Assembly: GCA_001418405.1 (NCBI GenBank)
Contig: LIQL01000004.1
Location: 206 to 64,205 of the forward strand
Length of the DNA stretch: 64,000 nt
Direction of reading: 5' to 3'
Origin: Streptomyces diastatochromogenes
GTDB taxonomy: Bacteria; Actinomycetota; Actinomycetes; Streptomycetales; Streptomycetaceae
Part shown: positions 4,262 to 55,809 of the stretch, one piece after another
Position numbering within the stretch: the stretch's first letter is position 1
How the letters are laid out: every line of letters starts with the position of its first letter
The notes under the pieces: model-generated
What the model saw: only the letters and a program-made list of their open reading frames with translations
Databases searched by the model: none
What the model was told of the DNA's origin: nothing
Position numbers and translations under genes: made by a program

Positions 4262-4305
4262 GTCCCGGGTGGATCCTCTTCTTTCGGGTCTGGATCGGTT
4301 GGTGG

Positions 4306-4611
4306 CTAGGCGGTGCAGGGGTGGGTGCGGCGGTTCGGGCAGGGATCGAAGTGGAGATGCCGCTCGCTGGCCTGCGGGCAGTCGGCATCGGTGCACGGCT
4401 CGCCGACCTGGCCGCGGCCGCTGCAGTCCGGGCATTCGACGGCGAGAGCCTGGCGGTAGAGGTCCATGCGCAGGCGGCCGATGAGGGCGTGGGCCCGGGC
4501 GAGGGACAGAGCGCCCTTGCCCAGGGCGAAGGCGGCGGCATGTTCGGCGGCCTGGGCGCCGGCCAGGAGGTCGGCGGCGGTCCGGGGCTGCACGTTCTCG
4601 GGAATGAGCAT
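4306..4611 (-). CDS. Small Cys-rich protein (101 aa), zinc-finger-like
   Basis: The N-terminal half is a helical Ala-rich region; the C-terminal half has CPDCSGRGQVGEPC, DADCP, PCPNR and HPC. That pattern recalls a DnaJ-type or treble-clef zinc-binding module. Proteins of this composition often sit just upstream of the DUF2637 gene in Streptomyces plasmid transfer operons. It is in the same direction, 44 bases before the DUF2637 start. Zinc binding is inferred from cysteine spacing only. Confidence 0.65.
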   Translation of the reverse strand: MLIPENVQPRTAADLLAGAQAAEHAAAFALGKGALSLARAHALIGRLRMDLYRQALAVECPDCSGRGQVGEPCTDADCPQASERHLHFDPCPNRRTHPCTA

Positions 4612-8300: not shown

Positions 8301-9277
8301 GCGGCGGCCGGTGCAGCCGTGCCCGGCCAGCGGGCGTTGATCCGGTCGAGAACAGGCTCGATCCGCCGCCGGGCCTCCCGCGCCGGATCGAGGGAGATCT
8401 GCTCCATGGCACGCCCCGCCGGGATCATCTCCACCTTCAACGCCACCGCCCGGAGCCGGGCCCGCTGAAGACCGAGCTGCCCGAACAGGGCGTAAGCAGC
8501 GTCGCGCAGGTCCTCCGTGTGGGCGGACGCCTCAGGCAGGGTTCGCGAGCGCACCAGCTGGGTCCGGTCAGAGAAGACGATCACGAGGGTGAGGGAACGG
8601 GCGACGGCCCGATGATGTCGTCGCAGCCGTTCACCGAGCTCAACGCACACGCCGAGCAGCGCTGCGCGCACCACGTCCGGATCAAGGGTGTCGGTGGGGA
8701 AGTTCCGGCGGGCGCTGGTCGTGGCGGCCAGTCCGGTGGGAACCACGGCCCGCCGGTCGATACCCCGGCTGCGTTCGTGGAGCAGTCGGCCGGCGCGCCC
8801 GCCGAGGAGCCGCTGAGCCGTGGCCTCGGGCAACTCCGCGAACAGGCCGATGTGCTGGACGCCGTAGTTCACCAGCGTGCGCGCCTGGACATTCGTGATC
8901 CCGTAGAGCGCGCCGATCGGCAGCGGGCCGAGGAACCGGGGTACCGCGTCCGGGTGAACCGTGCGGATCCCGTTGTCCTCGGGGCGTGAGGACGCCATGG
9001 CGGAGACGGCCCAGGCCGGGCTGAGGCCGATGCGGGTGTCCACGCCGTGGTGTGCGAGGGCGCGCAGTCGGATCTGTGCCGCGAGTGCGGCGGGCGACCG
9101 GCCGAAGTACCGGGGCGCCGCAGACAGATCCACGACCATGGCGGACGGCAGCAGCAGCTGGACCATGGGGCTGAAGTCGTGCAGTTGCTCGTGCAGCCGC
9201 CGGTAGAGCACCTCGGAGGTGCCCGGCCGGACGCGGACGTGCGCGATCACCGGCTGCCGCAGTCCGCCGCTGCTCAT
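8282..9277 (-). CDS. Degenerate Y-family DNA polymerase (ImuB-like), 331 aa
   Basis: The layout is that of a Y-family polymerase: palm-like start (PVIAHVRVRPG), a segment resembling the SIDE region (SAMVVDLSAAPRYFG), helix-hairpin-helix thumb (LGPLPIGALYGITNVQARTLVNYGV) and little finger (ARSLTLVIVFSD). The acidic catalytic residues usually found as VDMDxF and SxDE are not visible, and it lacks the ATP-rich N-terminus of DinB. That fits ImuB-type inactive paralogs, which act as adaptors in mutasomes. ATG 9277 has a strong GGAGGT. A LexA box lies 17-30 bp upstream, so SOS induction is likely. Confidence 0.75.
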   Translation of the reverse strand: MSSGGLRQPVIAHVRVRPGTSEVLYRRLHEQLHDFSPMVQLLLPSAMVVDLSAAPRYFGRSPAALAAQIRLRALAHHGVDTRIGLSPAWAVSAMASSRPEDNGIRTVHPDAVPRFLGPLPIGALYGITNVQARTLVNYGVQHIGLFAELPEATAQRLLGGRAGRLLHERSRGIDRRAVVPTGLAATTSARRNFPTDTLDPDVVRAALLGVCVELGERLRRHHRAVARSLTLVIVFSDRTQLVRSRTLPEASAHTEDLRDAAYALFGQLGLQRARLRAVALKVEMIPAGRAMEQISLDPAREARRRIEPVLDRINARWPGTAAPAAAYRPAS

Positions 9278-12276: not shown

Positions 12277-12714
12277 TCAGTTGGGGACGGTGGACTGTGT
12301 CAGCGCGGCGCCTTGGGCCGCCGCGAGCTCGTCGACGCTTCTCGGCACAACTGGAGCTGGCACGAGGTGAAGGAGCAGCCGCGGCCACAGGACCTGAGAC
12401 TGCGCATGCTCGGCGGCGAGCGTCTCGCGTACGAGGCGTCCGGCGGCCAGGTCGTCGAACTCGGCCTGGCAAAGCCTGATCACGGGGCCGAGGCTGATGA
12501 GCCCGACGTCGGGATGCCGGTCCATCCAGCCACCGTTGACGAGGGTCACCTCCGACAGCACGCCGACGTCGGACTCGGCATCGGCCAGGCTGACGGGCAG
12601 CAGCTCCCCGGCATGGACGAAAGCCGTGGCCTCCGGGGCGAGGCCGATCACCACGACCTCCTGCCGGGCGGCATCCCACGTTCTCGCCGTGGCCACCGGT
12701 GGCTGGTGGGGCAT
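12277..12714 (-). CDS. Hypothetical soluble protein (145 aa)
   Basis: It starts MPHQPPVATARTWDAARQ after a GGAGGA Shine-Dalgarno. The N-terminal half alternates short strands (EVVVIGLAP, SEVTLVNGGWMD), and the C-terminal half is helical with LCQAEFDDLAAGRLVRE. No domain recognised. It is first in the run of three minus-strand genes ending at 10978. Confidence 0.55.
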   Translation of the reverse strand: MPHQPPVATARTWDAARQEVVVIGLAPEATAFVHAGELLPVSLADAESDVGVLSEVTLVNGGWMDRHPDVGLISLGPVIRLCQAEFDDLAAGRLVRETLAAEHAQSQVLWPRLLLHLVPAPVVPRSVDELAAAQGAALTQSTVPN

Positions 12715-12980: not shown

Positions 12981-15023
12981 TCAGTGCGACGTGAAGTCGG
13001 CGACCAGCACGGCGAACGCTTCCTCGGTGATCGTCTCGATGCCGTACTTCGCTGCCTTGGCGACCTTGCTCCCGGCCCGTTCCCCGACTACCAGCAGGGA
13101 AGTCTTCTTCGTGACGTCGTCCTTCGCGGTGCCGCCTGCCGCCTTGATGAGCTGCTTCATGTCGGCTCGCTCGTAGGCCGAGAGCGGGCCCGTCATGGTG
13201 CCGGTGACGACCACGACCTTCCCCGCGAGCGGCCCGGTGGCGGGGCCCGTCGGGGCTTCCCCGACGAGGTTGACGCCAGCGGCGGCGAGCTTCTTGACAA
13301 CCTCTGCAACGCGCGGGAGTTGGGCCGCGATCTGCTTCGCCTTCTTGACGCCGATGCCCTCCACCGCCGTCAGCTTCTCAGCGTCGGAGTTGACGATCGC
13401 CTCCATGGTCAGAAAGTGGTCCGCCATCCGCTCGGATATCTCCCGGCCGGTCCCGGCGATGCCGAGGGCGCACAGGACCTCGTGGAACGCCCGGCCCTTC
13501 GCGGCGGTGATCTGCGCGAGCAGGTTGGCCGCCTCACCGCTGCCACGGCACGCCTGCGTGAGCTGGTCCAGGTCCAGATGGAAGAGATCGCCGACATCCG
13601 TGACCACACTGGCCTCGACCAGATTGCCGATCACGGCCGGACCCAGGCCGTCGATGTCCAGCTGCTCCCGCCCGGCGGCATACAGCAGCGCGGCGGGCAG
13701 ACCGCACTTGCCTCCATGGTTCTCCGTCGCATCACAGGTCCACCGTCCCTTACCGGAGTTGACCTTCCCTCCGCACACCGGGCACGAGGCCGGGAAAGTG
13801 ATCTCCTCCTCGTCGCCGGTCCGCATGTACGTCACCGGGCCGATGACCTGCGGGATGATGTCGCCCGCCTTCGTGACGGTCACACGGTCGTTCTTCTTCA
13901 AACCGAGGCGGGCGATGTCGCCGGGGTTGTGCAGGCTGGCCGAGGAGACCATGCTTCCGTCGATCTCGACCTCCTCCAGAACGGCCCGGGGTGCGAGGAT
14001 GCCGGTGCGGCCCACCGACCAGTCCACGTCCAGCAGCCGACTGATGCGCTCGGTTCCGGGCAGCTTGTACGCGACCGTGTGGTGGGGGTGCCGCGATCCG
14101 ATGCCGACCGCGTCCTGCTCGGCGCGGCTGTTGGCCCGGATGATCAGCCCGTCGATGTTGAAGGGGAGCGTGGCCCGCAGCGCGGCGTTCGCCTCGACCT
14201 GCTGCTGGGCCTCCGCGATGGTGGAAACTACGCGGAGCTTGGCCGGGGTGTGCTGGGTGGTCTGGACTCCGGCGTCGGCCACCCACTGCATCAGCTCCGC
14301 GTGCGTGGACTGGGGGAGCGCCTCACCCTCGGGCAGCTCCACTGCCTGGAACGCGAAGAACGTCATTTCCAGCGCGTACTTCCTGTTGCGGGCGCGAAGC
14401 GAGCCCGCAACGGCGTTGCGGGCGTTCGCGAAGGGCTCCTCGCCGTGCTTGAGGCGGATGTTGACAGCCTGCTCGAACTGGGCGTTCGTGAACACGCACT
14501 CCCCCCGGACCTCGAACGTCAGCAGCCGGTCCAGCTGTACGGGCAGGCCCAGGATCGTGCCGATGGCGTGGCTCCAGTCCTCACCCTGGCGGCCGTTACC
14601 CCGGCCGACCAGCTGGACCAGGCGGCCGTCCTCGTAGCGGGCAGCGACCGGCGTGCCGTCGAGCTTCACGTCCACGGTGAAACCGCCCGCCACCGGGCCA
14701 CCGAGACGCCGCTGGAACGATGCCTCCCAGGCCAGCAGCTTGGCGGGCGTGTTGACCTTCGCCAGGGACTGCATCGGGACGGTGTGCGCGACGTCACCGG
14801 CGGGGACCGCGCCGTCGGCGACCTTCTCGGTGGGCGAGTCGGGGGCGATGTCCTGCGGGTGCTGCTTCTCCCACGCGGCGACCTGCTCGTGGAGTTGGTC
14901 GAAGCTGGTGTCGTCCAGGGGGCTCTCCCCGGTCGTGTAGTACGCGGCAGACGCCTGACGGATGAGCGCGACGGCCTCGCGGTAGGCGGCCGTGCTGTTG
15001 AGCGGGGTGTCGGTGACCGACAT
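12981..15023 (-). CDS. ligA: NAD-dependent DNA ligase (LigA-type), 680 aa
   Basis: It seals nicks in duplex DNA using NAD+. Visible parts in order: Ia domain (AYYTTGESPLDDTSFDQL), adenylation domain with active-site lysine in KLDG (VDVKLDGTPVAARYEDG), motif III region FANARNAVAGSLR, motif IV-type IDGLIIR, motif V YKLPG, OB fold, a four-Cys zinc finger (CPVCGG...CDATENHGGKCG), helix-hairpin-helix repeats (DIDGLGPAVIGNLVEA, VEGIGVKKAKQIA) and a BRCT domain (GKVVVVTGTMTG). All key residues look intact. It stands alone between terminators. Because a core chromosome encodes an essential LigA, this may be an element-borne second copy. Confidence 0.93.
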   Translation of the reverse strand: MSVTDTPLNSTAAYREAVALIRQASAAYYTTGESPLDDTSFDQLHEQVAAWEKQHPQDIAPDSPTEKVADGAVPAGDVAHTVPMQSLAKVNTPAKLLAWEASFQRRLGGPVAGGFTVDVKLDGTPVAARYEDGRLVQLVGRGNGRQGEDWSHAIGTILGLPVQLDRLLTFEVRGECVFTNAQFEQAVNIRLKHGEEPFANARNAVAGSLRARNRKYALEMTFFAFQAVELPEGEALPQSTHAELMQWVADAGVQTTQHTPAKLRVVSTIAEAQQQVEANAALRATLPFNIDGLIIRANSRAEQDAVGIGSRHPHHTVAYKLPGTERISRLLDVDWSVGRTGILAPRAVLEEVEIDGSMVSSASLHNPGDIARLGLKKNDRVTVTKAGDIIPQVIGPVTYMRTGDEEEITFPASCPVCGGKVNSGKGRWTCDATENHGGKCGLPAALLYAAGREQLDIDGLGPAVIGNLVEASVVTDVGDLFHLDLDQLTQACRGSGEAANLLAQITAAKGRAFHEVLCALGIAGTGREISERMADHFLTMEAIVNSDAEKLTAVEGIGVKKAKQIAAQLPRVAEVVKKLAAAGVNLVGEAPTGPATGPLAGKVVVVTGTMTGPLSAYERADMKQLIKAAGGTAKDDVTKKTSLLVVGERAGSKVAKAAKYGIETITEEAFAVLVADFTSH

Positions 15024-28934: not shown

Positions 28935-31232
28935 TCAGTCCAGGAACCAGCCGGGAAGGGCTTCCAGCCGCAGGCGCCGCTCCTTCGGCAGCGTTCCCTC
29001 GCGGATCTGCTTCTTCTGCTGGAGAAGCCATCGGTAGATGCCGACGCCGCGGATCTGCTCATCGAAGGGGACCTTGATGTGGCCGTGCTTGACTGCCCAG
29101 TCCGCGAGGATGCCGAAACTCGCCTCCCACGCGGCATCTGCCGCGTCCCAGATCCACTCGGGTCGTTCTTCCAGCAGGTCGGCCTGCCCCTCGGGCAAGA
29201 TGCCCTTGCGGTACTCGATGCGCTTCCTGGAAACGGTGTGCCCGAGCGCGAACTTCACGCCGTCTCGCTCTACGGTGTGCCGCTGGGGAATTCGGGTGTG
29301 GCCGTGCTCGGCGATGAACGCGTCGAGGTGCTGGAGGAACAGCGTGAACTTCGCGTCGTGGACGTGCCACATCCAGCCCGGCAGCGCCTCGTAGTAGGCG
29401 ATCTCCTCGGCGTCCATGAGGCCGCCCCGGCGCCGGTTGCGGGCGAGCGTGACGAAGCTGTCGAGCCGGTAGCCGGAGGCGGTGACGTGGCCACGGGGGA
29501 CCCCGGCATGGCCGTACTCGGTGACGAAGGCTTCCAGTTCCTTCCGGCCGCGTTCGCGCTTTGTGTCGGCCAGCCTCCATGTCCAGCCGGGCAGGGACTC
29601 CAGCAGCACGGCGCGCTGCTGGCGGAGTTTTCCAGCCGCGTAGCGGGTGCGTTGCTGGGCGGCCCAGCTGCCGAGGGTCCCGGGCTCGTTGGAGAAGGGC
29701 ACCGCCGCGTGGCCGTGCTCGGCGACGTAACGCTCCAGCAGCCCGTAGCCGTGGAACCAGTCCTCGGTGACATGGTCGAGGACGTGGATGCCGAGGGCCT
29801 CGACGAAGCTGGCGTCGATGCTCTGGCCACCGTAGATCTGGATGCGTTCCGGCAGCACGGAGCGGGGCTCGGACTCTTGCTCGCGTGCCTGGCTGGAGAG
29901 GCGTCGTCGTGCGGTAGTCAGTGCCGCGTCCATGCGCTCGTCTTGGTCGCGGAGGGTGGCCAGGACTCGCCACACATGCCGGAACGCACTGGCTTCCAGT
30001 ACGGCCTGCGGGTTCTCGCCGGGGGCGAGATAGATCGGCAGCAGGATCAGGGCGGGCCGATCGTGGTCGGGGTGGAGCCTCAGGGCACGGCCGACCGCCT
30101 GCACGATGTCGGTCTGCGACGACTTCGGGTCGACGAGGCAGATGCCGTCGACGCTGCTGACGTCCACTCCCTCGGTCAGGGTGCGGACGTTGTTCAGGAC
30201 GACACGCTCTCCCTCGCGCGGGTGGGCCAGCCGCTGGAGCTGGGCGGCGCGGGCGGCGGCTGGGGTGGTGCCGTCCATGTGCAGGGAGGTGAGCCGCACG
30301 TTGGCTGTGCTGGCGCCGATCTGCGCAAGGGTCTCGGAGAAGAGGCGGGAGCGGTCGACGCGGCTGTGGAAGGCGATGATGCTGCGAACATCCCGTTCGT
30401 GCATGGCGCGTGACAACGCGATCTGGGCGGCCACCATCGCCGCGTTGTTCCTCCGGAGGGCTGCGGGTGACGTCTCCTGCGCCAGAAGGGCCGCGTGGAC
30501 GTCGGCATCCGAGACCAGGACGATCGCCACTTCGTAGTCGGCAAGCAGCTTCTGCTGGATGGCATTACCGAAGGTCAGCTCGTACACGCGTTTGCCGTAG
30601 AGCTGTTCGTTGTCCATCGACACGACGTCAGCTGTGCCGTCCGAGTCCTCGTGGATCAGGCTGGTCGCGGTGAGGGAAAGCCGGAACCGGGCAGGAATAC
30701 GGGTGTCATCGAGCACGATCGCGTACGCCTTGCCCGCTGGCCCGGCCGTGTGGTGCGCCTCGTCCAGAACGATGAGGTCCAACGCAGGGAGCGGCCGTGC
30801 CGCGTACGCCTCGGCTATCCGCTCCGCGGAGTGGTAGGTGGAGATCAGCAGACGCATCCGTGCGGTCCTGCCGGGGGCGAGGAAGTCGGCGATGCGCTCC
30901 GGGGCGACCGTGACCGGAACGGCGCTCCCACCCACGGCAGAATCTGAGCAGACAATGAGCGCTTCCATCGCGCCGGGGAATTCCGCAGCCCACCCCCGGT
31001 AGACCTGCTCGGCCAAGGCGAGCGTGGGCACGGTGACCAGGACCGTGGAAGCGGACCGCACCCGGGCGGTCTCACGCCCCACGAGAGACTTGCCAGTTCC
31101 ACAGGCCATGACCACCAGCGCGCGGTCCGCGGAGGCGTCACGAATGGCGTTGAGCGCTTCCACCTGGTGCGGGCGCGGGCGCATTCGAGCGGCACCCAGG
31201 AGGTGATGCGGTGCGGGGCGGCAGGAGTTCAC
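28935..31232 (-). CDS. DEAH-type SF2 helicase with four helicase-associated (HA) repeats (765 aa)
   Basis: The helicase core has Walker A (MACGTGKS), motif II DEAH (LIVLDEAHHT), motif III-like SLTAT and motif VI QAVGRALRLHP, so it should couple ATP hydrolysis to movement on nucleic acid. The C-terminal third has four HA units, each ending in a PxWxW or PGW signature: LPGWTWR, LPGWMWH, RPEWIWD and LPGWFLD, each with an xxGH(A/T/I)xxP centre. HA domains are thought to contact nucleic acid. GTG 31232 has GGAG 7 bases upstream; ATG 31184 is the alternative. Helicases of this type are frequent on Streptomyces plasmids. Confidence 0.88.
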   Translation of the reverse strand: MNSCRPAPHHLLGAARMRPRPHQVEALNAIRDASADRALVVMACGTGKSLVGRETARVRSASTVLVTVPTLALAEQVYRGWAAEFPGAMEALIVCSDSAVGGSAVPVTVAPERIADFLAPGRTARMRLLISTYHSAERIAEAYAARPLPALDLIVLDEAHHTAGPAGKAYAIVLDDTRIPARFRLSLTATSLIHEDSDGTADVVSMDNEQLYGKRVYELTFGNAIQQKLLADYEVAIVLVSDADVHAALLAQETSPAALRRNNAAMVAAQIALSRAMHERDVRSIIAFHSRVDRSRLFSETLAQIGASTANVRLTSLHMDGTTPAAARAAQLQRLAHPREGERVVLNNVRTLTEGVDVSSVDGICLVDPKSSQTDIVQAVGRALRLHPDHDRPALILLPIYLAPGENPQAVLEASAFRHVWRVLATLRDQDERMDAALTTARRRLSSQAREQESEPRSVLPERIQIYGGQSIDASFVEALGIHVLDHVTEDWFHGYGLLERYVAEHGHAAVPFSNEPGTLGSWAAQQRTRYAAGKLRQQRAVLLESLPGWTWRLADTKRERGRKELEAFVTEYGHAGVPRGHVTASGYRLDSFVTLARNRRRGGLMDAEEIAYYEALPGWMWHVHDAKFTLFLQHLDAFIAEHGHTRIPQRHTVERDGVKFALGHTVSRKRIEYRKGILPEGQADLLEERPEWIWDAADAAWEASFGILADWAVKHGHIKVPFDEQIRGVGIYRWLLQQKKQIREGTLPKERRLRLEALPGWFLD

Positions 31233-31448
31233 GACGGCTCCGTTAACAAGGGGGCGAGTTTGGGAGCCGCATGGTGGGTTGAACACGCAGGTCAAGGCGC
31301 TTCTGCGCGAAACTCGGGCTTCGCTCGGCGCTGGCGTTCGGGCGTGGTCCTGGCCGGGCTGAACCAACCTGCTGCGGCGAGGCCGGGGAGCGGTAGACAC
31401 CAACGAGCCCCTGGGCCGGACAGGTGAGCCCGGACCGGGGCGGGGGCG

Positions 31449-44153: not shown

Positions 44154-46469
44154 TTAAGACTCCGGCGTGCCAGCCCCCGTCGGATCCAATGACGCGGCCA
44201 CGATGTGTTCACGGATCTGCTGCAGCACGTCGTACAGGCGTTGGGCGGCGCCGCTTCCGGGACCGCCGAGATCCTCGCGGGCGGCGTCCAACAGGACGGC
44301 CAGGTGCTGGCCCCGGATCCGGCCGGTGGCACTGCGCCGGGCATCGCCGAGTGCGGCCTGCAGCCGGCGGCGGTAGGCGCCGGGCTGGACCTGGGCGAGC
44401 CGTCCGCGTCGTGGATCGACGCGGGTCGCGGTGCCGAAGAGGTTGCTGCGCAGCCAGTGCGGAATGGCCTGGCAGGACGCGTCGTCCAGGGCGGGCAGCG
44501 GCACCCACGCGCGCTCCGCCTCGATCACGGCGCGGGCGGCCGCGTCCCGGTCGCCATGGTTCGGGCCGCGGCCCAGTGACCGCCGCCGGTGGACAGCCGC
44601 CCAGCGGGGAGCCTGGCCGGTGCGGCGGCGGACCGGGGCGATGGTGCCGACCTCGGTGTCGTCGGCCAGCACCCGGTAGCCGCCCTGCTGGTCCGGGTCG
44701 GGCTCCAGCCGCCAGGCGCGTCCGTGGACGACGCCCAGGTCGACCGGAGCCGTCTCGTCCTCTGCTCCGGGTGGACCGGTGAGGCTTTCCAGGGCGCGGG
44801 TGAGCTGGCGGGCGTCCTTGCTGCGGCCCAGATTCTTCGGGTCGAGCCCGGTGAGCAGGGCCAGGTCCTGCTCACCGGGCACGCGCAGTGCGGTGCGCAG
44901 TGCGGCGGCCCGGACATCTTGCGGCAGCCGCGCCAGCCTCCCCCCGCGTTCGGGGGTGGCGGTGACCACCGGAATCACAGCGGCGACCAGGGCGGCCTGG
45001 GCCGGTTCATCGAGGGCGGCGAACCCAGCGGCCGCGGTGGCCGCCGGGCCGGGCGCTGCACGCAGGGCGGCGCTGATGACCGCGCCCGCGGCCTGCTCGC
45101 GGTTGGCGAAGTGCGTCTGCTGGTAGGGCGGGGGCAGAGGGATGCCGCTGCGGTGGGCGGACCAGCCCCTGAGCGAGTTGCCGAGCAGGGTGCGCTCGGG
45201 CTGGACGGTGCCGGTGTTCTCCCCGTCCCGTCGCACGGTCCAGGTGTCCCAGTCGGCGTCCCGGCGTACCAGGCTCCAACCGGACCCGCCGTGCACACCC
45301 AGATCGACGATCGCCGCCGGCATGCACTCGTCCTCGGCGGCGTCCGGCTCCGGTTCCTGGTCTGGGGTGGATTCGGAGGCCTCGCCTTCGTCCCCGGGGG
45401 CCGGGGACGAGGGTCCGGCTGTCGACCGTGCGGCTTCGAGGTGTGCACGCAGCGCGGCCATTTCCCGGCGGTGCTCGCGCCGTTCCTCGTCGAGCTGGGT
45501 GGTCAGGCGCCCGTTCGCGGTCTTCAGTTCCTCGCGGTTCTCGGTGAGTTCGTCGAGCCGGGCGCTGAGCCCCGAGTTCTCGGTCTGGGCGGTGGCGAGG
45601 TCGGCGGCCGCCCGGCGCCGTGCCTCCTCCAGGGTGGTGGTGTGCTGGGACAGCTCCTGCACACGATGCTGCAGGCTCTCGGCCTCTCCCTTCAGCTGGC
45701 CGTGGGCCTCGAGCAGGGTGCCGTGCGTGCCGGTGAGCGCGGTGTGGGCGTGCTCCAGCTCCTGGTGCCGGTTCTTCAATTCACCGTGTGCTCCGGTGAG
45801 TTCAGCATGCTCGCCGCGAAGCCGTTGGTGCTCTTCGGACAGCTGCTGGCGTGCGGCCGCAGACTCGGTGGCGCGCTGGTCGGCGTCGGCGGCCTCGCGG
45901 AGTGCGGTGGCCGCCTCCAGCTGCGCCGCGTGCTGTTCCGCGCGCGCCTCGGCCGCGACCTCGCCGCTGCGGGCCGCCTGCTCACGGGCTTCCTCGGCGG
46001 CCTGGATCGCTTCATCGCGGCGCTCCTCGGCCTGACGGACCTGTTCGTCGGCGCTGTGCTGGACCTCGACGATATGGGCGGCGACCGCGTCGGTGTCCGC
46101 CCCGGCCTCCTGCCCGGCGTGTACGGCCTCCAGGGCGGTCAGCACCCGCGGCAGCAGCTGGGCCAGGACCTGCTCCTCGCGCACGCCCCGGGCGACGGCC
46201 TGCTGCACCGGGACGGGTTCCGGCGCGGCGGCGCGCTCCTTCTCCAGGCGCTGGCGGGCCCGGTAGGCGATCTGCCGGTCCCGGTCGTTGTTGTGCTGGA
46301 CGCAGAACTTGGGCGGTGGCCCCGGTTTGCCCTTACTGCGGGGTGCGCGCGCGTTCGTACAGTCCGGGAAGTCGCAGTCCGGGCCGCCGAAGCCCGCCTC
46401 CATGAGCTTCTTGGCTAGCCACTCGTCCTCGGCGACCGCGCGTGCGGGGCGGATGGTCTTGGTAGTCAT
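44154..46469 (-). CDS. Zinc-finger, long coiled-coil protein with a duplicated C-terminal module (771 aa)
   Basis: The N-terminus has a metal site, CDFPDCTNARAP then KFCVQHNNDRDRQIAYRAR. Residues about 110-360 are a continuous coiled coil. After a short acidic linker, two similar modules follow: one begins VDLGVHGGSGWSLVRRDAD, the other VDLGVVHGRAWRLEPDPD. Each continues with a W-x-A-HR segment, an AAxAVI helix and an RGRLAQ/RGGRLAR block, so the C-terminal half looks like a tandem duplication of about 180 residues. No catalytic motif or Walker site. It is the last gene of a three-gene operon with a P-loop-like and an RraB-like protein. The architecture suggests a structural or DNA-organising role; that is inference. 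Confidence 0.7.
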   Translation of the reverse strand: MTTKTIRPARAVAEDEWLAKKLMEAGFGGPDCDFPDCTNARAPRSKGKPGPPPKFCVQHNNDRDRQIAYRARQRLEKERAAAPEPVPVQQAVARGVREEQVLAQLLPRVLTALEAVHAGQEAGADTDAVAAHIVEVQHSADEQVRQAEERRDEAIQAAEEAREQAARSGEVAAEARAEQHAAQLEAATALREAADADQRATESAAARQQLSEEHQRLRGEHAELTGAHGELKNRHQELEHAHTALTGTHGTLLEAHGQLKGEAESLQHRVQELSQHTTTLEEARRRAAADLATAQTENSGLSARLDELTENREELKTANGRLTTQLDEERREHRREMAALRAHLEAARSTAGPSSPAPGDEGEASESTPDQEPEPDAAEDECMPAAIVDLGVHGGSGWSLVRRDADWDTWTVRRDGENTGTVQPERTLLGNSLRGWSAHRSGIPLPPPYQQTHFANREQAAGAVISAALRAAPGPAATAAAGFAALDEPAQAALVAAVIPVVTATPERGGRLARLPQDVRAAALRTALRVPGEQDLALLTGLDPKNLGRSKDARQLTRALESLTGPPGAEDETAPVDLGVVHGRAWRLEPDPDQQGGYRVLADDTEVGTIAPVRRRTGQAPRWAAVHRRRSLGRGPNHGDRDAAARAVIEAERAWVPLPALDDASCQAIPHWLRSNLFGTATRVDPRRGRLAQVQPGAYRRRLQAALGDARRSATGRIRGQHLAVLLDAAREDLGGPGSGAAQRLYDVLQQIREHIVAASLDPTGAGTPES

Positions 46470-46484
46470 CGCTTAGTCCGGTCC

Positions 46485-46781
46485 TCAGTCCTTGTCGCGC
46501 TGAACGATCATCGGGTCGGCCACGGGGCGTCCGTATGTGGCCTCCCCGCCGTCGTAATCGCCCCCGTGACGCGTCACGATCGCTTCGACCTCCCGGTGTC
46601 GCTGCTGCAGGTCGCCGACTTCGACGTCCCGCGCAGCCAGGAGCCGCCACTGCGGCGTCACTTCTGGATCTGGCTCGCTGATACGGGTCACGTAGTCCGC
46701 CAGTTCTCTGGCGCATGCCTCGGCGCTGCCCCGGTCCGGGAAGTACGCCCAATGCGTATAGGGGATCAGGAGTCGGCTCAT
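46485..46781 (-). CDS. RraB-like (RNase E inhibitor domain) protein (98 aa)
   Basis: YTHWAYFPDRGSAEACARELADY, the middle WRLLAARDVEVGDLQQRH, and HGGDYDGGEA near the end match the RraB fold, where GGxYDGWE is the best-conserved element. RraB regulates RNase E in enterobacteria; in actinobacteria the domain occurs in proteins of unknown role. Its ATG shares one base with the TGA of the upstream P-loop-like gene, so it is translationally coupled to it. Confidence 0.7.
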   Translation of the reverse strand: MSRLLIPYTHWAYFPDRGSAEACARELADYVTRISEPDPEVTPQWRLLAARDVEVGDLQQRHREVEAIVTRHGGDYDGGEATYGRPVADPMIVQRDKD

Positions 46782-47854
46782 CAGGTGGCCTCCCCAAGCG
46801 CGCCCAGCGCGGCGTGTGCCGCCGCGCCGACCGGGTGGCCCGGGGCGGCGGCCCGAACGGCCCGGGTGAAAGCGGCGCGGGCGGACTTGGTCCGGCCCTG
46901 CAACTGGGCGGCGACGCCCAGGGCGTACTGATCACCCGCGTCCGGCAGGAGCTCCGCGACGTCCTCCCACGCCCGGTCGTCGAGCGGCCGCGGCTTGTGC
47001 CCGTGATCGCCGTCGTCCGATCCCGCCGCGTAGGCCAGTACGCGCCACTCCTGCGAGCGGCCGCCTTCGGCGCGGAAGAGCAGCCCGGTCGACGCGCCCT
47101 GGGGCACCGCGCTGGCCCAGTCGAGCGCGTGCTGGAACCGGAGCCGGGATTCGTCGGGGGAACCGCTGCGGGCGGACCAGAGGCGGTACAGCTCCTCGGT
47201 CGTCAGCGGACGGTGGATGCCGCAGCGCCGGGCATCGACAGCGACCTGCACCAGCAGATGGCCCGCGGGCTCGCTGCGGGCCGCCCGCCTGTAGCGCTGG
47301 ACCAGGTTTTCACCGCCGACGAGTGATTCGGCGATGCCCTTGCTCACCGGGTAGCCCTGGGCGCGCAGCCAGTTCCGCTCCCGGGGCGTCATGACGAAGG
47401 GCACCGTGACGCGCTGCGCGTACTCCCGCAGCACGGTGCGCGCCGGCGCGGTCACTGCCGAGCCGTCCGCCAGGACCCGGTCCGCCCAGATCGTGTTGAC
47501 GGCGGCCAGTACGACGGCGTGCGGCAGGACCTGGTCCAGCAGGCCGTGACCCAGCAGGACGAGGTCGGCGGGCGCGAGGTCATCGAGCCACAGGACGGCT
47601 CCATGCGGAGGGGTGAGTTGGGCTTCGGCGTCGGCCCGGGTGCAGAACTCGGCCAGGGCGCCCGCGCGAAACGGCGCCAACTGCGTCTGGGGATCAAAGC
47701 GTTGGACGGCCTCCCACATGGTCCGCGTCACACCGGACAGCGGCGGGCCGTCCAGGAGCACCAGGGGTTTGGTGGGCCGGGCGGCGGACGCGAGGAGCCG
47801 GGCGGCCTCCTCGACCGGGTCGGCCGGGCCGTCGGACTGCGGTCGCTGGCTCAC
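46781..47854 (-). CDS. P-loop-like protein with repeat-rich C-terminus (357 aa)
   Basis: GTG 47854 follows AGGAGAA. Near residue 35, LVLLDGPPLSGVTRTMWEA resembles a degenerate Walker A, and HGAVLWLDDLAP resembles Walker B (hhhhDD), so it may be an NTPase or a relic of one. The middle contains helical regions; the C-terminal 80 residues (DAGDQYALGVAAQLQGRTKS, AFTRAVRAAAPGHPVGAAAH) look like a TPR pair. It is first in the leftward operon and divergent from the recombinase operon across an AT-rich spacer. Confidence 0.65.
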   Translation of the reverse strand: MSQRPQSDGPADPVEEAARLLASAARPTKPLVLLDGPPLSGVTRTMWEAVQRFDPQTQLAPFRAGALAEFCTRADAEAQLTPPHGAVLWLDDLAPADLVLLGHGLLDQVLPHAVVLAAVNTIWADRVLADGSAVTAPARTVLREYAQRVTVPFVMTPRERNWLRAQGYPVSKGIAESLVGGENLVQRYRRAARSEPAGHLLVQVAVDARRCGIHRPLTTEELYRLWSARSGSPDESRLRFQHALDWASAVPQGASTGLLFRAEGGRSQEWRVLAYAAGSDDGDHGHKPRPLDDRAWEDVAELLPDAGDQYALGVAAQLQGRTKSARAAFTRAVRAAAPGHPVGAAAHAALGALGEAT

Positions 47855-48382
47855 GGTGAAAGTTCTCCTCAAGATGAGTGGGCAGGTGCAGTCCGTCACG
47901 TCTCTTACGTCTCGGCCCCAGGTTCGGTTACGGACCGATGTGTCATCCGTGGTGTTGCGGCCAGGCGTTGCACGGCCATCGTGTGCGCCTCCTCCCCCTC
48001 GGTTCGCCGGCTGGGCCTTCCTGACGGGTTTTCCGGCCGCCGCGCGCCCCGGTGGGCGGGATCGTGGGGGATAGCTGCCGGATCCCTCCGCACGCTAAAC
48101 CACCACTACGGAGAATACAACTCAACTCAAACACGAGCAGAGTCGATGTGAAATTGAGTGATGAATAATGCATGTTGACCTGCATAGATCGGCTGTACAT
48201 GATTCTAAGCCGTGATGAGGATTTGCCGCCCATCCATACCAGCACGGGGGTTAAGTGACGGAGAGCGGCGCATGGGTACCGGGATGGCGTCGAGTGGTCC
48301 GTGAGGGGTCCGGAAGTGTGTTACTGATGGGTAGCCGACGGTAAGTGGCATTGTCGTCGGTAAACCGGGCTAGGCTGCCCCG
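47855..48382. other. Divergent 528-bp spacer with an AT-rich island
   Basis: No gene. Bases 48101-48220 are about 44% GC against roughly 70% around them. This part has a CAACTCAACTCAA direct repeat (about 48119-48131), its partial inverse TTGAGT (48154-48159), and TGCAT repeated on both sides of GTTGACC (about 48169-48185). A TTTAGCGT box on the minus strand (about 48098-48091) may serve the leftward operon. It is a candidate promoter, recombination or replication site. Confidence 0.6.
48371..48376 (+). promoter_or_regulatory. Leaderless -10 box TAGGCT
   Basis: TAGGCT lies exactly 6 bases before the GTG of the first gene of the recombinase operon, the typical geometry of a Streptomyces leaderless promoter. 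No good -35 is visible (TTGTCG at 48351 has only 14 bp spacing). Confidence 0.6.
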
Positions 48383-48631
48383 GTGATCCACGACGACGAG
48401 CCGACCGCCGGCCCTGCCCGCGCGGGCGCCCCGGTGCCTCACGGGGAGATCCCGGGCCAGGGGACCCTGTTCCCGGTGACGGCCCCCCGCAGCACCACCC
48501 TTAGCTATGCCCGGCCGGACGGCGCCCCGCTCACCGCGGCGGACTTCGCCGCCCTGCACGCCCTGGCTCGCGCCACCCGCAGCCGGGCCGCTGCCGTGCC
48601 GCTCGCGGGGGAGGGCCTCGGGTGCCGCTGA
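48383..48631 (+). CDS. First gene of the recombinase operon (82 aa, unknown)
   Basis: GTG 48383, read as MIHDDEPTAGPARAGAPVP, probably from a leaderless message. The N-terminal half is Pro/Gly-rich and disordered; the C-terminal half is helical (LTAADFAALHALARATRSRA). Its stop overlaps the start of the next gene by 10 bases. No family recognised. Confidence 0.55.
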   Translation: MIHDDEPTAGPARAGAPVPHGEIPGQGTLFPVTAPRSTTLSYARPDGAPLTAADFAALHALARATRSRAAAVPLAGEGLGCR

Positions 48632-48930
48632 CGACGGAGCAGTACCACGCCCTGCACCACTTCATCGCCGACCGGATCGCCGACCTCGGACCGGCGGGCA
48701 TGGGCGATCCGTTCGTGGCTGCGGTGAACGCGCAGCTGACCGTGCACGGCGACCTCCTGACCTATCAGGACTTCGACGGCCTGGACCGGCGCGACGCCGG
48801 ATTCATCGACGGCGTCGGCCTGGCCCTGCAGCACGTCGCCGCCCGCTGGCCCGCCCACCCCGACTACCAGAGCGCCTGGGCCCCGCCGCGCACCGACGGC
48901 CTCGGACTCCTGGAAGGCGACTACCGATGA
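48622..48930 (+). CDS. HPDY-tail small protein (102 aa)
   Basis: GTG start within the end of the previous gene. Helical throughout (YHALHHFIADRIADLGP, FIDGVGLALQHVAARW), with C-terminal AARWPAHPDYQSAWAP. The A-x-x-(Y/W/F)-x-x-HPDY ending is shared with the 170-aa protein two genes on and with the DUF6221 protein downstream of the recombinase. It is therefore probably a member of a DUF6221-like family. Function unknown. Its TGA overlaps the next ATG (ATGA). Confidence 0.6.
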   Translation: MPLTTEQYHALHHFIADRIADLGPAGMGDPFVAAVNAQLTVHGDLLTYQDFDGLDRRDAGFIDGVGLALQHVAARWPAHPDYQSAWAPPRTDGLGLLEGDYR

Positions 48931-48989
48931 CCATGCCCATCGCCACCGCGCCGGTCGGCCCCGGCCTGCCCACCAGGTCCCAGCGGTGA
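48927..48989 (+). CDS. 20-aa bridging ORF
   Basis: ATG overlaps the TGA of the 102-aa gene (ATGA) and its own TGA overlaps the next GTG (GTGA). It encodes MTMPIATAPVGPGLPTRSQR. The exact double overlap suggests it carries ribosomes from one gene to the next, perhaps without a function for the peptide itself. Confidence 0.5.
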   Translation: MTMPIATAPVGPGLPTRSQR

Positions 48990-49498
48990 GTGCCGACGAC
49001 CGCGCCGCACGTACCGCCGCCCACCGCCAGGACCGCACCCACCGGCGCGCCGTCGCCCAGGGCTCGCACCGGGTCCCGCGCTGGGAGGAACTGACCGAGC
49101 GGCAACGCTCCGCGCGCACCGCCACCGCCGCCGAGTGCCTGGACGCCGCCGCGGCCGCGGGCGTCGTACGCCGCCCCGCCCCCCGGCCGACCCGCGAACA
49201 TGCGGACGCCCTCAAGGCGTTCCTGATGCACCGCTACGACGAGCTCCATGATCCGCAGTTCAGGCTCGGGTTCGCCAGCACCGGTGCCCGCGCCCTCGCT
49301 GGCTACCGGGACCTGATCATGCACGCGGTGGTAGGCGTGGACATGGCCCTCAATGGCTCACCGGAGCACGCGGCGCTGGGCTGGAGCGTCCGCGCGGACG
49401 AGGACTGGGCGCTGTGCTTGCGTCTGGCCGAGTCCTTCACCGACCACCCCGACTACGCCCCGCAGCGGTGGACTCCCACGGACGGGGCCACCCGGTGA
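48986..49498 (+). CDS. HPDY-tail protein (170 aa)
   Basis: GTG 48986 overlaps the micro-ORF stop. A basic N-terminus (MSADDRAARTAAHRQDRTHR) leads to a helical core (EHADALKAFLMHRYDELHDP, LAGYRDLIMHAVVGVDMAL) and a C-terminus LRLAESFTDHPDYAPQRW, the same ending as its operon neighbour. It stops in a GTGA overlap with the recombinase gene, so dosage is tied to the recombinase. No known family beyond the DUF6221-like tail. Confidence 0.6.
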   Translation: MSADDRAARTAAHRQDRTHRRAVAQGSHRVPRWEELTERQRSARTATAAECLDAAAAAGVVRRPAPRPTREHADALKAFLMHRYDELHDPQFRLGFASTGARALAGYRDLIMHAVVGVDMALNGSPEHAALGWSVRADEDWALCLRLAESFTDHPDYAPQRWTPTDGATR

Positions 49499-50934
49499 CC
49501 GCCCCGGGCAGCGACGTCGAGCCGTACGAGGTCCTCGACGCCGAGCTCGTCGACCTCACCGCCCCGGCACGTCCGGAGATCCGGCTGCTGGTCGACCAGC
49601 ACACCGTGCTCCGCCCCGGACAGGCCCTCCCCACTACCTCGGACGGCCCCCGCTACACCAAGCGGGACCTGGACATCTCGGAGGAGACCGCCCGCGCCCT
49701 GGATGCGGCCGACGGCCAGGAATCCGGTCCGATGCGGGCCTTCCGCGCCTGGTGCGGCCGGGAGCAGCGGGTGCCCGTGCCGTGCACGACCGCCACCTAC
49801 ACCGAGTACGGGCGGCACCTGATGAGCCGCGGACTCAAGGTCACCACGATCAGTAACTACATGTCGCTGATCCGCACCACCATGCCCGTCGGCAAGCAGC
49901 CCGACAACAGCCTGTTCCTCAAGCTCCTCAAGGAGTACCGGCAGACCAACAAGCGGGCCGTCCGCAGGAAGCAGGCGTTCCCGATCACCCTGCCCTACCT
50001 GATCCCGATGATGGAGAAGGCGGAGGCCACCGGGCGCCCCCTCGGCTGGCGCGACGCGGCGATGCTCGCCTTCGGCTACCGCTTCCTGGCCCGCCGCAGC
50101 GAGGAGGTCGACCTCGACATCGAGGACCTCGTCGTCATGGACGACCGGATCGTGGTCTGGCTGCTCAAGGACAAGACCCACCAGACCGAGGACCAGACCC
50201 TCACCCTGCACGACCGGCCCGACCTGCGGATGGTGCCCCGCATGCGGCGCTGGCTCGCCCACCTGGCCGCCCAGGGCATCACCACCGGCCCGCTCTTCCG
50301 CCACCTGCTCAAGAACGGCACCGTCGCCTCCTCCGAGACCCGGGCCAAGAAGGCGTCCAAGCGCGGCGACTACCTGCGCGGCCACACCGTCAACGAGCGC
50401 GTGAAGCACTGGTTCGCCGCGGCCGAGCTCAGCACCGACGGCCGCCCGGTCTCCGCCCAGGGCCTGCGCGCCGGCGGTGCCACCGACCTCGGCGAATCCG
50501 ACGCCACCGAGGAGGAGCTGGAGGAGGCCGGGCGGTGGGCCAAGGGCTCGCCCATCCCGCGCAAGGTCTACGTCCGTCCCGCCCAGAAGGCCCGGCACGA
50601 CCCGTTCGCCAAGGTCCCGATGTACGGGCACAAGACCTGGCCACGCCAAGGAGACGCCGCAGTGCCCCAGGAGACCGGCACCCTGCTCTACACGTTCATC
50701 TCCGACCGCCTCGACGAGCAGATGCGCCAGGCATACGTGACGGGCGCCGACGGACCTGCCGCTGTACGTGCGTATGCCGACGAGCTGCGGGAGATCATGC
50801 GCCTGCACCAGCGGTTCACCGAAGCCACCTACGCTCAGGACGAGGCGGCCGCCGCGGAGTACCGGCAGCAGCTCGCCGACCGGGCCGCCGAATGGGAGGA
50901 CCACCAGGAGTACCCGCTGAAGACCGCGGCATAG
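49495..50934 (+). CDS. Tyrosine recombinase / integrase-like protein (479 aa)
   Basis: It would cut and rejoin DNA through a tyrosine. The N-terminal SAM-like region (FRAWCGREQRVPVPCTTATY and beyond) binds DNA. In the catalytic domain the first Arg is in RFLARRSEEVDLDIEDL (about residue 203), the Lys in LLKDKTHQ, the second Arg in QGLRAGGATDL (about 324), Trp in GRWAKG and the nucleophile in RKVYVRP (about 357). The HxxR histidine is Gln here. A C-terminal extension of about 100 residues is unusual. GTG 49495 overlaps the previous stop, which fixes the start. Role may be integration, dimer resolution or telomere-type processing; the target site is unknown. Confidence 0.8.
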   Translation: MTAPGSDVEPYEVLDAELVDLTAPARPEIRLLVDQHTVLRPGQALPTTSDGPRYTKRDLDISEETARALDAADGQESGPMRAFRAWCGREQRVPVPCTTATYTEYGRHLMSRGLKVTTISNYMSLIRTTMPVGKQPDNSLFLKLLKEYRQTNKRAVRRKQAFPITLPYLIPMMEKAEATGRPLGWRDAAMLAFGYRFLARRSEEVDLDIEDLVVMDDRIVVWLLKDKTHQTEDQTLTLHDRPDLRMVPRMRRWLAHLAAQGITTGPLFRHLLKNGTVASSETRAKKASKRGDYLRGHTVNERVKHWFAAAELSTDGRPVSAQGLRAGGATDLGESDATEEELEEAGRWAKGSPIPRKVYVRPAQKARHDPFAKVPMYGHKTWPRQGDAAVPQETGTLLYTFISDRLDEQMRQAYVTGADGPAAVRAYADELREIMRLHQRFTEATYAQDEAAAAEYRQQLADRAAEWEDHQEYPLKTAA

Positions 50935-53597: not shown

Positions 53598-54441
53598 GGC
53601 GGCCCCTTCATCTCGTGGGCGACTGCGCCCATAAGTCTCCAGGACGCTCGAAGTCGGCCCCGCCCGCACCGTAGCAAGGGCAAAAACTGCTGGTGGGACA
53701 GCTTCACACCCCGTCACTGTTCCGGGGCTCGGGTGCGCTCCAGCCAGAGGATGCGACGTAAGCCTTGCCGAGGCACGACTCGGCGTCGTACGTCACCCGG
53801 ATCGTCAACGCCACGGGTGCACTTCGCGGAGGCACGAGACCGGACGGGGGCCGCTAACACCTTCCACCGCGTCGCCGCACACCAAGTACCGGAAACACCA
53901 TACGGGTTGCACCAACCGCGGCCTACGATCGCGTCATGTTGCGTCCTGAAAGCTGGTCCAGGCTCGCGGGTGGAAGTCCCGCCCGGGTAGACACCGGAGT
54001 GCCCGGTAGCAGGTCCCGGTTCGTCGTGGAGACGCGGCGGGCTGAGCGGGACGTCAAAAGCCCCTTTGGGGGTAGCAAGCACGCGGGCCGTAGCATCAAG
54101 CGAACCTTGCAGCCTCGTCAGATCGACAACGGAGAAGCCGAGCCTGTCATGACAGGGCGAAGGCCACGTCCTGGGGGCCCTGTTCCGGGGTCAGCCCTTG
54201 GGGTTCTCCCGGGGTATGGAGGGCGGCACGTGTGCACAGTCTGGGCCGGAACAGGAGAGACCCGTCTGACCACGCCTGACGTCGGGCAAGAGACCGGACG
54301 TATAAGCCGATGGTGAAGTCGTCCGGAGGGCAGCGGGAGTCCGAGCGGGGCGTAGTACCGCTGATCGGCGTGCAACATAACGCGCCGGGAGGGAAGGGCC
54401 CGCACTTTGATCACGCTCGTGAAGAGGGTAAGCACGAGGGC

Positions 54442-55809
54442 ATGGCCGGGTCTGCCCGGTCCAATAACCCCGACGGGCGATGCTCCGTCGTAGTAGACGG
54501 GCCTGCGTCCGTCACGAAAGTGCGAAAACTTCAGCGCGGGCTATGGGCTGCGGCCAAGCAGTCTCCGGAGCGGCGTTTCCACGCCCTGTATGACCGTATC
54601 CACAGAGGTGACGTTCTGTGGGAGGCGTGGGAGCGAGTCCGGGCTAACAAAGGGAGCGCCGGGGTGGATCGGGTCACCCTGGAGTTCGTGGAGAACGAGT
54701 ACGGGGTCCGTCGAATGCTCGGCGAACTCCAGCTCGCTCTTCGCTCAGGCACGTATCGTCCCGCGCCAGCCAGGCGTGTGGACATTCCGAAACCACAGGG
54801 TGGCAAGCGGCCATTGGGGATTCCCACGGTCCGCGACCGAGTGGCCCAGCAGGCGGCGAAGATCGTGCTGGAGCCGGTGTTCGAGGCGGATTTCCTGTCG
54901 TCCTCGTATGGATACCGGCCGAAGCGGTCGGCGGTGCAGGCGATGGAGCGTCTTCGGACGGGCTTCATCCAGGGACGCTGTGTGGTCGTGGAGTTCGACA
55001 TCCGCAACTTCTTCGGCGAGATCGACCACGGTCGTCTCCTGGCCGAAGTGGGTCGCAGGGTGTCGGATCGTCGGGTGGTCAAGCTGCTGCGGTTGTGGCT
55101 CCAGGCGGGTGTGATGGTGGAGGGCGAGGTTCGGCGGACGGTCGCCGGGACTCCCCAGGGCGGGGTGATCTCACCCTTGCTGGCTAACATCTACCTGCAC
55201 GTATTGGATGTCGAGCTTGCTCGGCGCGGCGTCGGCGAGCTGGTGCGGTATGCGGACGACGGTGTTGTCCTATGCCGGTCGGCGACCGACGCTCAGGCGG
55301 CCCTGGCGGTCGTCGGGGAGATCCTCGGCTCGCTCGGGCTGGAGCTGCATCCCGACAAGACGAAGGTGGTTGACCTCAGAGAGGGCCGGGAAGGACTCGA
55401 CTTCCTCGGCTGCCACTTCAGAGCCTGCTTTTCGGGCCGGTCATGGGCGAAGTACGGCACTGTCCGCTACTACCTCCACCGCTGGCCCTCGCAGACAGCG
55501 ATGAAGAGACTCCGGGACAAGGTCCGCGAGCGGACCGACCGCCGCCGGTCGGGATGGGATATCCGCGATGTCGTCGCGGATTTGAATCCGATCCTGCGCG
55601 GCTGGGGCGCCTACTTTCGAACCGGGAATGCTGCCCGGAAGTTCGTCCAGGTCGATGACTACGTCGTCTGGCGTCTCCGCCGACTCATGGTGAAGAAGCG
55701 GGGCCGTAACTTGCGAGGTGGTCAGACCGCTGTGTGGACGGAAGAGTGGTTCAAGGGGCACGGCCTGTATCGCCTGCGTGGCACGATCCGCTATCCGAAG
55801 GCGGCGTAA
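54442..55809 (+). CDS. ltrA: Group II intron reverse transcriptase/maturase (455 aa)
   Basis: The reverse transcriptase domain runs from KGSAGVDRVTLEFVE through PLGIPTVRDRVAQQAAKIVL and YGYRPKRSAVQAME to the catalytic YADD (ELVRYADDGVVLC), then the thumb/X maturase region (ADLNPILRGWGAYFRTGNAA) and the C-terminal KGHGLYRLRGTIRYPKAA. There is no HNH endonuclease domain, so mobility would rely on nicked or single-stranded targets. It promotes splicing and reverse-splicing of its host intron. ATG 54442 follows GAGGG; a longer frame from 54310 lies in structured intron RNA and is less likely. Confidence 0.92.
   Translation: MAGSARSNNPDGRCSVVVDGPASVTKVRKLQRGLWAAAKQSPERRFHALYDRIHRGDVLWEAWERVRANKGSAGVDRVTLEFVENEYGVRRMLGELQLALRSGTYRPAPARRVDIPKPQGGKRPLGIPTVRDRVAQQAAKIVLEPVFEADFLSSSYGYRPKRSAVQAMERLRTGFIQGRCVVVEFDIRNFFGEIDHGRLLAEVGRRVSDRRVVKLLRLWLQAGVMVEGEVRRTVAGTPQGGVISPLLANIYLHVLDVELARRGVGELVRYADDGVVLCRSATDAQAALAVVGEILGSLGLELHPDKTKVVDLREGREGLDFLGCHFRACFSGRSWAKYGTVRYYLHRWPSQTAMKRLRDKVRERTDRRRSGWDIRDVVADLNPILRGWGAYFRTGNAARKFVQVDDYVVWRLRRLMVKKRGRNLRGGQTAVWTEEWFKGHGLYRLRGTIRYPKAA

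Follow-up and report, generated by a model that had tools for sequence, protein, structure and literature searches.

We describe a putative plasmid-maintenance locus built around a zinc-finger/coiled-coil protein (CC hereafter) in 64,000 nucleotides of Streptomyces diastatochromogenes DNA (contig LIQL01000004.1, assembly GCA_001418405.1), referred to as the window. The window is part of a 69-kb contig in a 9.1-Mb genome of Streptomyces type. At a probability of roughly 0.4, we read the CC operon as accessory and as serving the maintenance of large Streptomyces plasmids; it would be autoregulated and follow KfrA-like logic, without CC being a KfrA member, and lies beside an exchangeable module of a recombinase and its site. 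A preliminary description had proposed a three-gene cassette of an NTPase-like, an RraB-family and the CC gene. As a conserved unit the cassette is rejected because the NTPase-like gene occurs in only one of six CC loci, an outcome that, for this gene, the preliminary description had itself named as refuting; the pairing of RraB with CC stands in five of the six. Here tight clustering in one genome made the cassette look more fixed than it is, since one member of the trio is an interchangeable passenger. The fixed control block, the variable first-gene slot and the swappable recombinase/site module define a testable plasmid-maintenance candidate in actinomycetes. Large Streptomyces plasmids hold many unnamed genes, and two short DNA sites described here are directly testable. 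No publication on the operon was found in literature searches.

The three genes are all present as open reading frames (ORFs), head to tail on the minus strand. The NTPase-like gene (46781–47854) encodes 357 residues from its most likely start, a GTG at 47854 preceded by AGGAG; the longest ORF reaches 47899. Its TGA stop overlaps the ATG of rraB (46485–46781, 98 residues) as TGATG, and the CC gene (44154–46469, 771 residues) starts 15 nt beyond the rraB stop. A recombinase operon (48383–50934) runs on the plus strand and diverges from these genes. The NTPase-like and CC genes pass a coding filter on GC content at third codon positions (GC3; limit 0.80), which rraB fails with a GC3 of 0.79. The tight coupling, the divergence and the boundary at 47854 agree with the preliminary description, which had also named the parts correctly: a degenerate NTPase, an RraB-family protein and an SMC-shaped protein, the last being a coiled coil without an ATPase head.

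CC was recovered from three plasmid records by tblastn (125,561, 134,078 and 437,587 bases), and from two further contigs by a scan of genome contigs with two exact peptide patterns, by which relatives can be missed. With the window these make six CC loci (window, L002, L003, L004, L010 and L011), three of them on plasmids. Among 199 genomes of the genus, in each of which few candidates were scored (five per genome for CC), a full-length CC was present in one, the window's own; G025 and G036 gave partial matches to the second C-terminal module only. Fifteen stretches of viral contigs fitted the CC pattern and none was confirmed. We regard CC as accessory because it came from three plasmid records and was full-length in one of the 199 sampled genomes. 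In an alignment whose L002 row begins in the wrong frame, the CC proteins are 36–44% different from that of the window. Frame changes, perhaps from assembly error, affect the CC N-terminus of L002 and both CC and the recombinase of L011.

The layout upstream of CC varies. The order is NTPase-RraB-CC in the window, RraB-CC in L002 and L003, 132-residue helical gene-RraB-CC in L010 and L011, and 132-residue gene-CC, with no RraB, in L004. The slot before rraB (before CC in L004) therefore holds the NTPase-like gene once and an unrelated 132-residue helical gene three times, and is empty twice. A 141-residue ORF before CC in L004 was considered as RraB and rejected, showing no similarity. A divergent tyrosine recombinase is present at all six loci, the L011 copy having been read from an ORF list and changing frame. 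ParA is encoded 2.2–2.6 kb downstream of CC in L002 and L003, and ParB/ParA 2 kb downstream in L010. Downstream of CC, L011 and L004 also carry an RDD gene and a 330-residue gene that are present in the window, although L004 has only a fragment of the 330-residue gene.

The region upstream of the operon carries a conserved candidate regulatory signal. In the window, TTTGAGTTGAGTTGTA (48131–48116) overlaps a −35-like TTGTAT, which is followed after 17 nt by a −10-like TAGCGT (48097–48092), so that the block spans 48092–48131 on the minus strand. The other CC loci have a −35-like TTGYAW and, after 17 nt, a −10-like TA-x3-T; we read these as probable promoter elements. The block TTTGAGTTGARTTGYA is found in all six loci and, at one mismatch or fewer, once in each of G000, G223, W01, W02 and W03, all searched whole (L010 not included). 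Hexamers of GAGTTG/TTGAGT type, counted on both strands with overlaps, number 5, 6, 6, 3, 4 and 5 per 90 nt in the window, L002, L003, L004, L010 and L011, respectively, against a calculated expectation of 0.05–0.07.

Judged from sequence, this iterated block is the feature closest to KfrA. The KfrA operator of plasmid RA3 comprises five 9-nt repeats overlapping the kfrA promoter, and RA3 KfrA has no ATPase head and supports plasmid maintenance; KfrA proteins are grouped by predicted secondary structure and not by sequence (PMC7783346, in the sections drawn on here). CC resembles KfrA-type proteins (RK2, R751, RA3) in being plasmid-borne, in its long coiled coil without an ATPase head, in the repeats over its own promoter-like region at six of six loci, and in the ParA/ParB genes near some loci. 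It differs from them in having an RraB partner gene.

The CC protein combines an N-terminal C-x4-C-x18-C-x2-H motif, a coiled coil at about residues 124–348 and two tandem C-terminal modules, much as first described. The putative zinc ligands C32, C37, C56 and H59 are kept in all five single-frame N-termini (window, L003, L004, L010 and L011); in L002 the C-x4-C part reads in frame, and the other zinc-type residues come after the frame change. The coiled coil extends over about 225 residues (SMC-profile match 124–348, proline-free 108–352), close to the 250 originally claimed. CC shares coiled-coil composition and weak profile matches at about 124–348 with SMC, Rad50 and MukB; these matches arise because of the coiled coil. 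Unlike those proteins, CC has no Walker A (G-x4-GK[ST]) anywhere and no head-domain match, and SMC_prok_B gives 23 bits over residues 124–348 only, far under its cut-off of 567.35. We therefore rejected CC as an SMC protein. No Pfam family scored above cut-off for CC, and its nine PHROGs matches all fall within residues 114–347 (best E=5.7e-4).

A single module, duplicated in tandem and since diverged, makes up the C-terminal ~390 residues of CC (hhalign 93.5%, E=2.4e-7, 31% identity over 167 columns), as the preliminary description had noted. Module 1 (residues 381–571; 44757–45329, minus strand) is predicted to have a strand-rich part and a helix, then helices; module 2 (residues 571–771; 44157–44759, minus strand) is its diverged copy. 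An AlphaFold2 model of modest confidence, built from four sequences, places strands, a helix and further helices in the same order twice, and the beta part of module 1 was also modelled alone. Foldseek returned no match for the modules at E≤0.001, and comparison of the C-terminus with solved structures by sequence gave nothing useful (best E 1.4). Tyrosinase caddie protein was tried as a structural match and rejected. VIA-align gave Z 5.4 (70 aligned, rmsd 3.0) for the beta part of module 2, and Z 5.1 (71, 3.6) and Z 4.6 (71, 3.7) for that of module 1 in the long model and alone, respectively. Because these scores lie below the tool's stated noise level, we claim no fold for the modules. Part of module 2 has a further, partial copy at 12428–12619 of L010, directly downstream of CC.

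The RraB-family gene scores 30.2 bits with Pfam RraB (PF06877; cut-off 23.3), and scored 29.2 bits when the genome was searched. Scoring above the curated cut-off, in a genome with an RNase E/G-family gene, it is like known RraB; it is unlike it in that the match begins at profile position 23 (23–99) and in its rarity in the genus, with close relatives at E≤1e-8 in two of 199 genomes, its own included. PF06877 exceeded its cut-off in six of 31 genomes, namely its own and five of another genus of the order, the latter scoring much higher. Relatives were found in five plasmid records. Comparison with solved structures by sequence gave nothing useful (best E 0.37), and there were no PHROGs matches. 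RraB of Escherichia coli is described as binding RNase E at its scaffold, and it reportedly inhibits RNase ES of Streptomyces (PMC10126417, in the sections drawn on here).

The NTPase-like protein carries a degenerate P-loop, a WLDDL Walker-B-like motif and a weak C-terminal TPR match. The Walker-A lysine is replaced by Val or Ile in all three close copies: GPPLSGVT in the window, GPPLSGIT in L006 and GPPLSGVS in L005. Distant relatives have an intact G-x4-GK[ST] in all seven loci read in the right frame (11 examined, four unread). Against relatives in seven loci, blastp gave 24–30% identity over the P-loop and the following helical region, and the profile matched in 11 of 41 genomes, its own included, in open frames of 276–1162 residues. 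Pfam listed no NTPase family for the protein of the window; its profile found nothing useful among solved structures by sequence (best E 0.83), and PHROGs gave one match at E=0.32. The gene is probably related, in shortened form, to the large actinobacterial STAND/TPR ATPases, a family name that is our own reading. It is like these ATPases, which have a GESTAGKT-type P-loop, in the identity just given over the P-loop and helical regions, and unlike them in standing alone at 352–357 residues (two unbroken copies) and in the substituted lysine.

Two other plasmids carry the close relatives of the NTPase-like gene (L006, 62% identity; L005, in two frames), and neither has a full CC or RraB. The gene was absent by tblastn from the other five CC loci, and none was found in the whole CC plasmids W01–W03 or in the genome holding L011; L010 was checked as a 22.6-kb locus only. 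In Streptomyces sp. NBC_00239, CC and an NTPase-like gene are on separate plasmids. This distribution and the lost lysine therefore suggest a pseudo-NTPase-type passenger in a variable slot, in which ATP binding has probably been lost. A relative of the window's 330-residue gene (39%) was seen on the L006 plasmid, which has no CC, about 4 kb from the NTPase-like relative (3677–4369 and 7977–9035).

The window recombinase (49495–50934, plus strand; its ORF opens at 49414 and the alignment starts at 49495) matches PF00589 with 27.8 bits against a cut-off of 27.1. The tyrosine of the YVRP motif is present in seven of seven proteins of this type, six of them from plasmid loci that we fetched (60–66% identity). 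A C-terminal extension of the window protein is absent from six aligned relatives. The other five CC loci (L002, L003, L004, L010 and L011) have a different recombinase type, about 26% identical, and another palindrome.

Between the two operons of the window lies a 14-6-14 candidate site, GTAGCCGACGGTAA-GTGGCA-TTGTCGTCGGTAAA (48331–48364, no strand assigned), probably a core site or an operator of the recombinase operon. It has five mismatches of 28 to the consensus GTAGCCGACAACAA-N6-TTGTTGTCGGTAAC. Whole-locus scans with the consensus, allowing up to seven mismatches, gave one match in the window and in five of the six plasmid loci (1–4 mismatches in the latter). In L043 an exact copy of the consensus arms has a 2-nt spacer, and the 6-nt spacer fits six of seven loci. 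The candidate site resembles plasmid Xer/dif-like and other tyrosine-recombinase core sites in its two inverted arms, 6-nt spacer and position beside a recombinase operon. Unlike these, it has 14-nt arms, imperfect in the window, and would serve a single plasmid-borne recombinase. The other recombinase type is accompanied in five of five loci by a 13-9-13 palindrome, CTGATTCCGGCTA-N9-TATCCGGAATCAG, whose 13-nt arms differ at one position. A single copy with exact 10-nt outer arms occurs in each of four replicons or genomes searched; when three mismatches were allowed, G000 gave one unrelated copy and G223 gave two control matches per strand to the reversed pattern. Each type of site may serve as a core site, as an operator or in both roles. 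Since type-specific sites lie beside one CC family, site and recombinase seem to have been exchanged together while the CC operon stayed.

Under the maintenance reading, CC would form dimers by way of its coiled coil and use its zinc end, its duplicated C-terminal modules or both to bind DNA or a partner protein. It would repress its own operon through the iterated GAGTTG block over the putative promoter, as KfrA does at its own promoter, and would help to retain plasmid copies. RraB, with an RNase E-type enzyme as its putative partner, would modulate the RNA decay that depends on RNase E, and plasmid transcripts may be among the targets. In the first-gene slot the pseudo-NTPase would serve as an exchangeable adaptor, and the divergent tyrosine recombinase, a swappable neighbour, would act on its own site to resolve multimers or move the element. 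A bolder version appears unlikely to us: that CC represents a new class of plasmid-maintenance protein, in which a zinc-headed coiled-coil rod ending in duplicated modules binds an iterated site of centromere or operator kind and bridges copies of the plasmid beside any recombinase-site pair gained by it, an RNA-decay regulator being co-expressed to set the dose of CC. The role in segregation raised in the preliminary description is plausible, given plasmid location in three of six loci, ParA/ParB nearby in three of six and the iterated operator-like block; nothing was found in favour of its suggestion of DNA end handling.

Several observations weigh against the maintenance reading. Three of the six CC loci, the window included, are contigs not proven to be plasmids, and ParA/ParB lies near CC in only three of six (window, L004 and L011 not systematically searched). 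PF11740, which we take to be the KfrA N-terminal DNA-binding domain, does not figure in the 12-family list obtained for CC up to E=10. Zinc-type residues and a ~390-residue duplicated C-terminal part are not described for KfrA in the sections of PMC7783346 drawn on here, and the CC modules have no convincing match to any solved fold (models of mean pLDDT 66.5 for the C-terminal modules and 73.3 for the module 1 beta part alone). RraB is missing in L004, and is present without CC in the stretches fetched for L007–L009. Box II of the window recombinase reads QGLR, with Gln for the usual His; Gln also occurs in L048, and His in the other five. The window site is a poor palindrome whose arms mismatch at 5 of 14 positions, and its support is likeness to the relatives that supplied the consensus. 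Palindrome scans failed to list it, and the corresponding sites in L044 and L047 were likewise missed; when the window region was shuffled 50 times, 3 of the shuffles gave a palindrome score of 9. Each of the two kinds of site may act solely as an operator.

The same intergenic region would also suit a purely regulatory operon, in which CC is a plasmid-borne regulator of its own transcription and of that of the diverging recombinase, RraB modulates RNA decay and segregation plays no part. The conserved block and repeats at six of six loci, the start of the recombinase operon from that region and the above-cut-off RraB match are compatible with this. The ~225-residue coiled coil and 390-residue duplicated part, however, exceed the needs of a simple repressor, and the GAGTTG repeats are on the CC side, not at the recombinase-side sites; we consider it somewhat unlikely. 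Quite unlikely, in our view, is a fortuitous neighbourhood, with cargo of mosaic plasmids kept together by chance and by recent ancestry of the six loci. Just six CC loci are known here, the NTPase-like, 132-residue and RraB genes come and go, and RraB occurs elsewhere without CC. Yet control block and gene order have been kept between CC proteins differing by over a third from the window's, and the CC side stayed while the recombinase type differs.

A divergent tyrosine recombinase and an intervening candidate site at six of six loci could alternatively mark one integrative element comprising recombinase, site and CC operon, with CC as an accessory architectural factor for recombination. This is improbable: the CC family has two recombinase types as neighbours, the window's type and such a site are found together on six plasmids with no CC match, and a search of the window for tRNA attachment found no tRNA gene. 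Defence, also raised in the preliminary description, is very improbable. Here an anti-phage or anti-plasmid island would combine a sensor NTPase, an RNA-decay inhibitor and an SMC-like effector. An SMC-shaped protein and a STAND-related gene do share one operon, and the PADLOC profiles JetC, LmuB and ZorA were listed for CC. These matches are confined to CC residues 90–347, mainly coiled coil, at 16.5 bits at best, and the other six proteins that were submitted drew no match. Neither a nuclease nor any other effector enzyme could be recognised among the operon's products, and the NTPase-like gene, which lacks the lysine, is absent from five of six CC loci. In a paper on SCP1 partition (PMC13245405), a term search gave no hit for recombinase, integrase, RraB or tyrosine.

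Three further ORFs precede the recombinase in its operon on the plus strand. The small first ORF (48383–48631) resembles a small ORF adjoining the L004 recombinase (38 residues, E=2.3e-5), the second (48622–48930) is DUF6221-like at 19.8 bits, under the 27.6 cut-off, and the third (48986–49498, 170 residues) has no family above cut-off. Elsewhere in the window are an NAD-dependent DNA ligase gene (12981–15023, minus strand), a helicase gene with four helicase-associated (HA) domain stretches (28935–31403, minus strand) and a group II intron reverse transcriptase/maturase gene (54310–55809, plus strand; PF00078, PF08388).

In the three loci with the 132-residue gene, a 25-residue hydrophobic leader peptide (MDLxNLAGIFxPxL...AVLLxR) is encoded, and conserved, between the control block and that gene (L004, 9477–9554; L010, from 9158; L011, from 9160); the window, L002 and L003 showed none. 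The helical half of CC module 2 recurs as a lone copy (39%, ~100 residues) near both ends of the 338-kb linear plasmid NZ_CP108678.1, which also bears the broken NTPase-like relative L005; G036 has a second partial match. The copies (L021, 5944–9336, the same as L014; and L020) lie about 7.4 kb from each plasmid end, in unannotated sequence close to a gene for a DnaB-like helicase, and are noted as a lead only.

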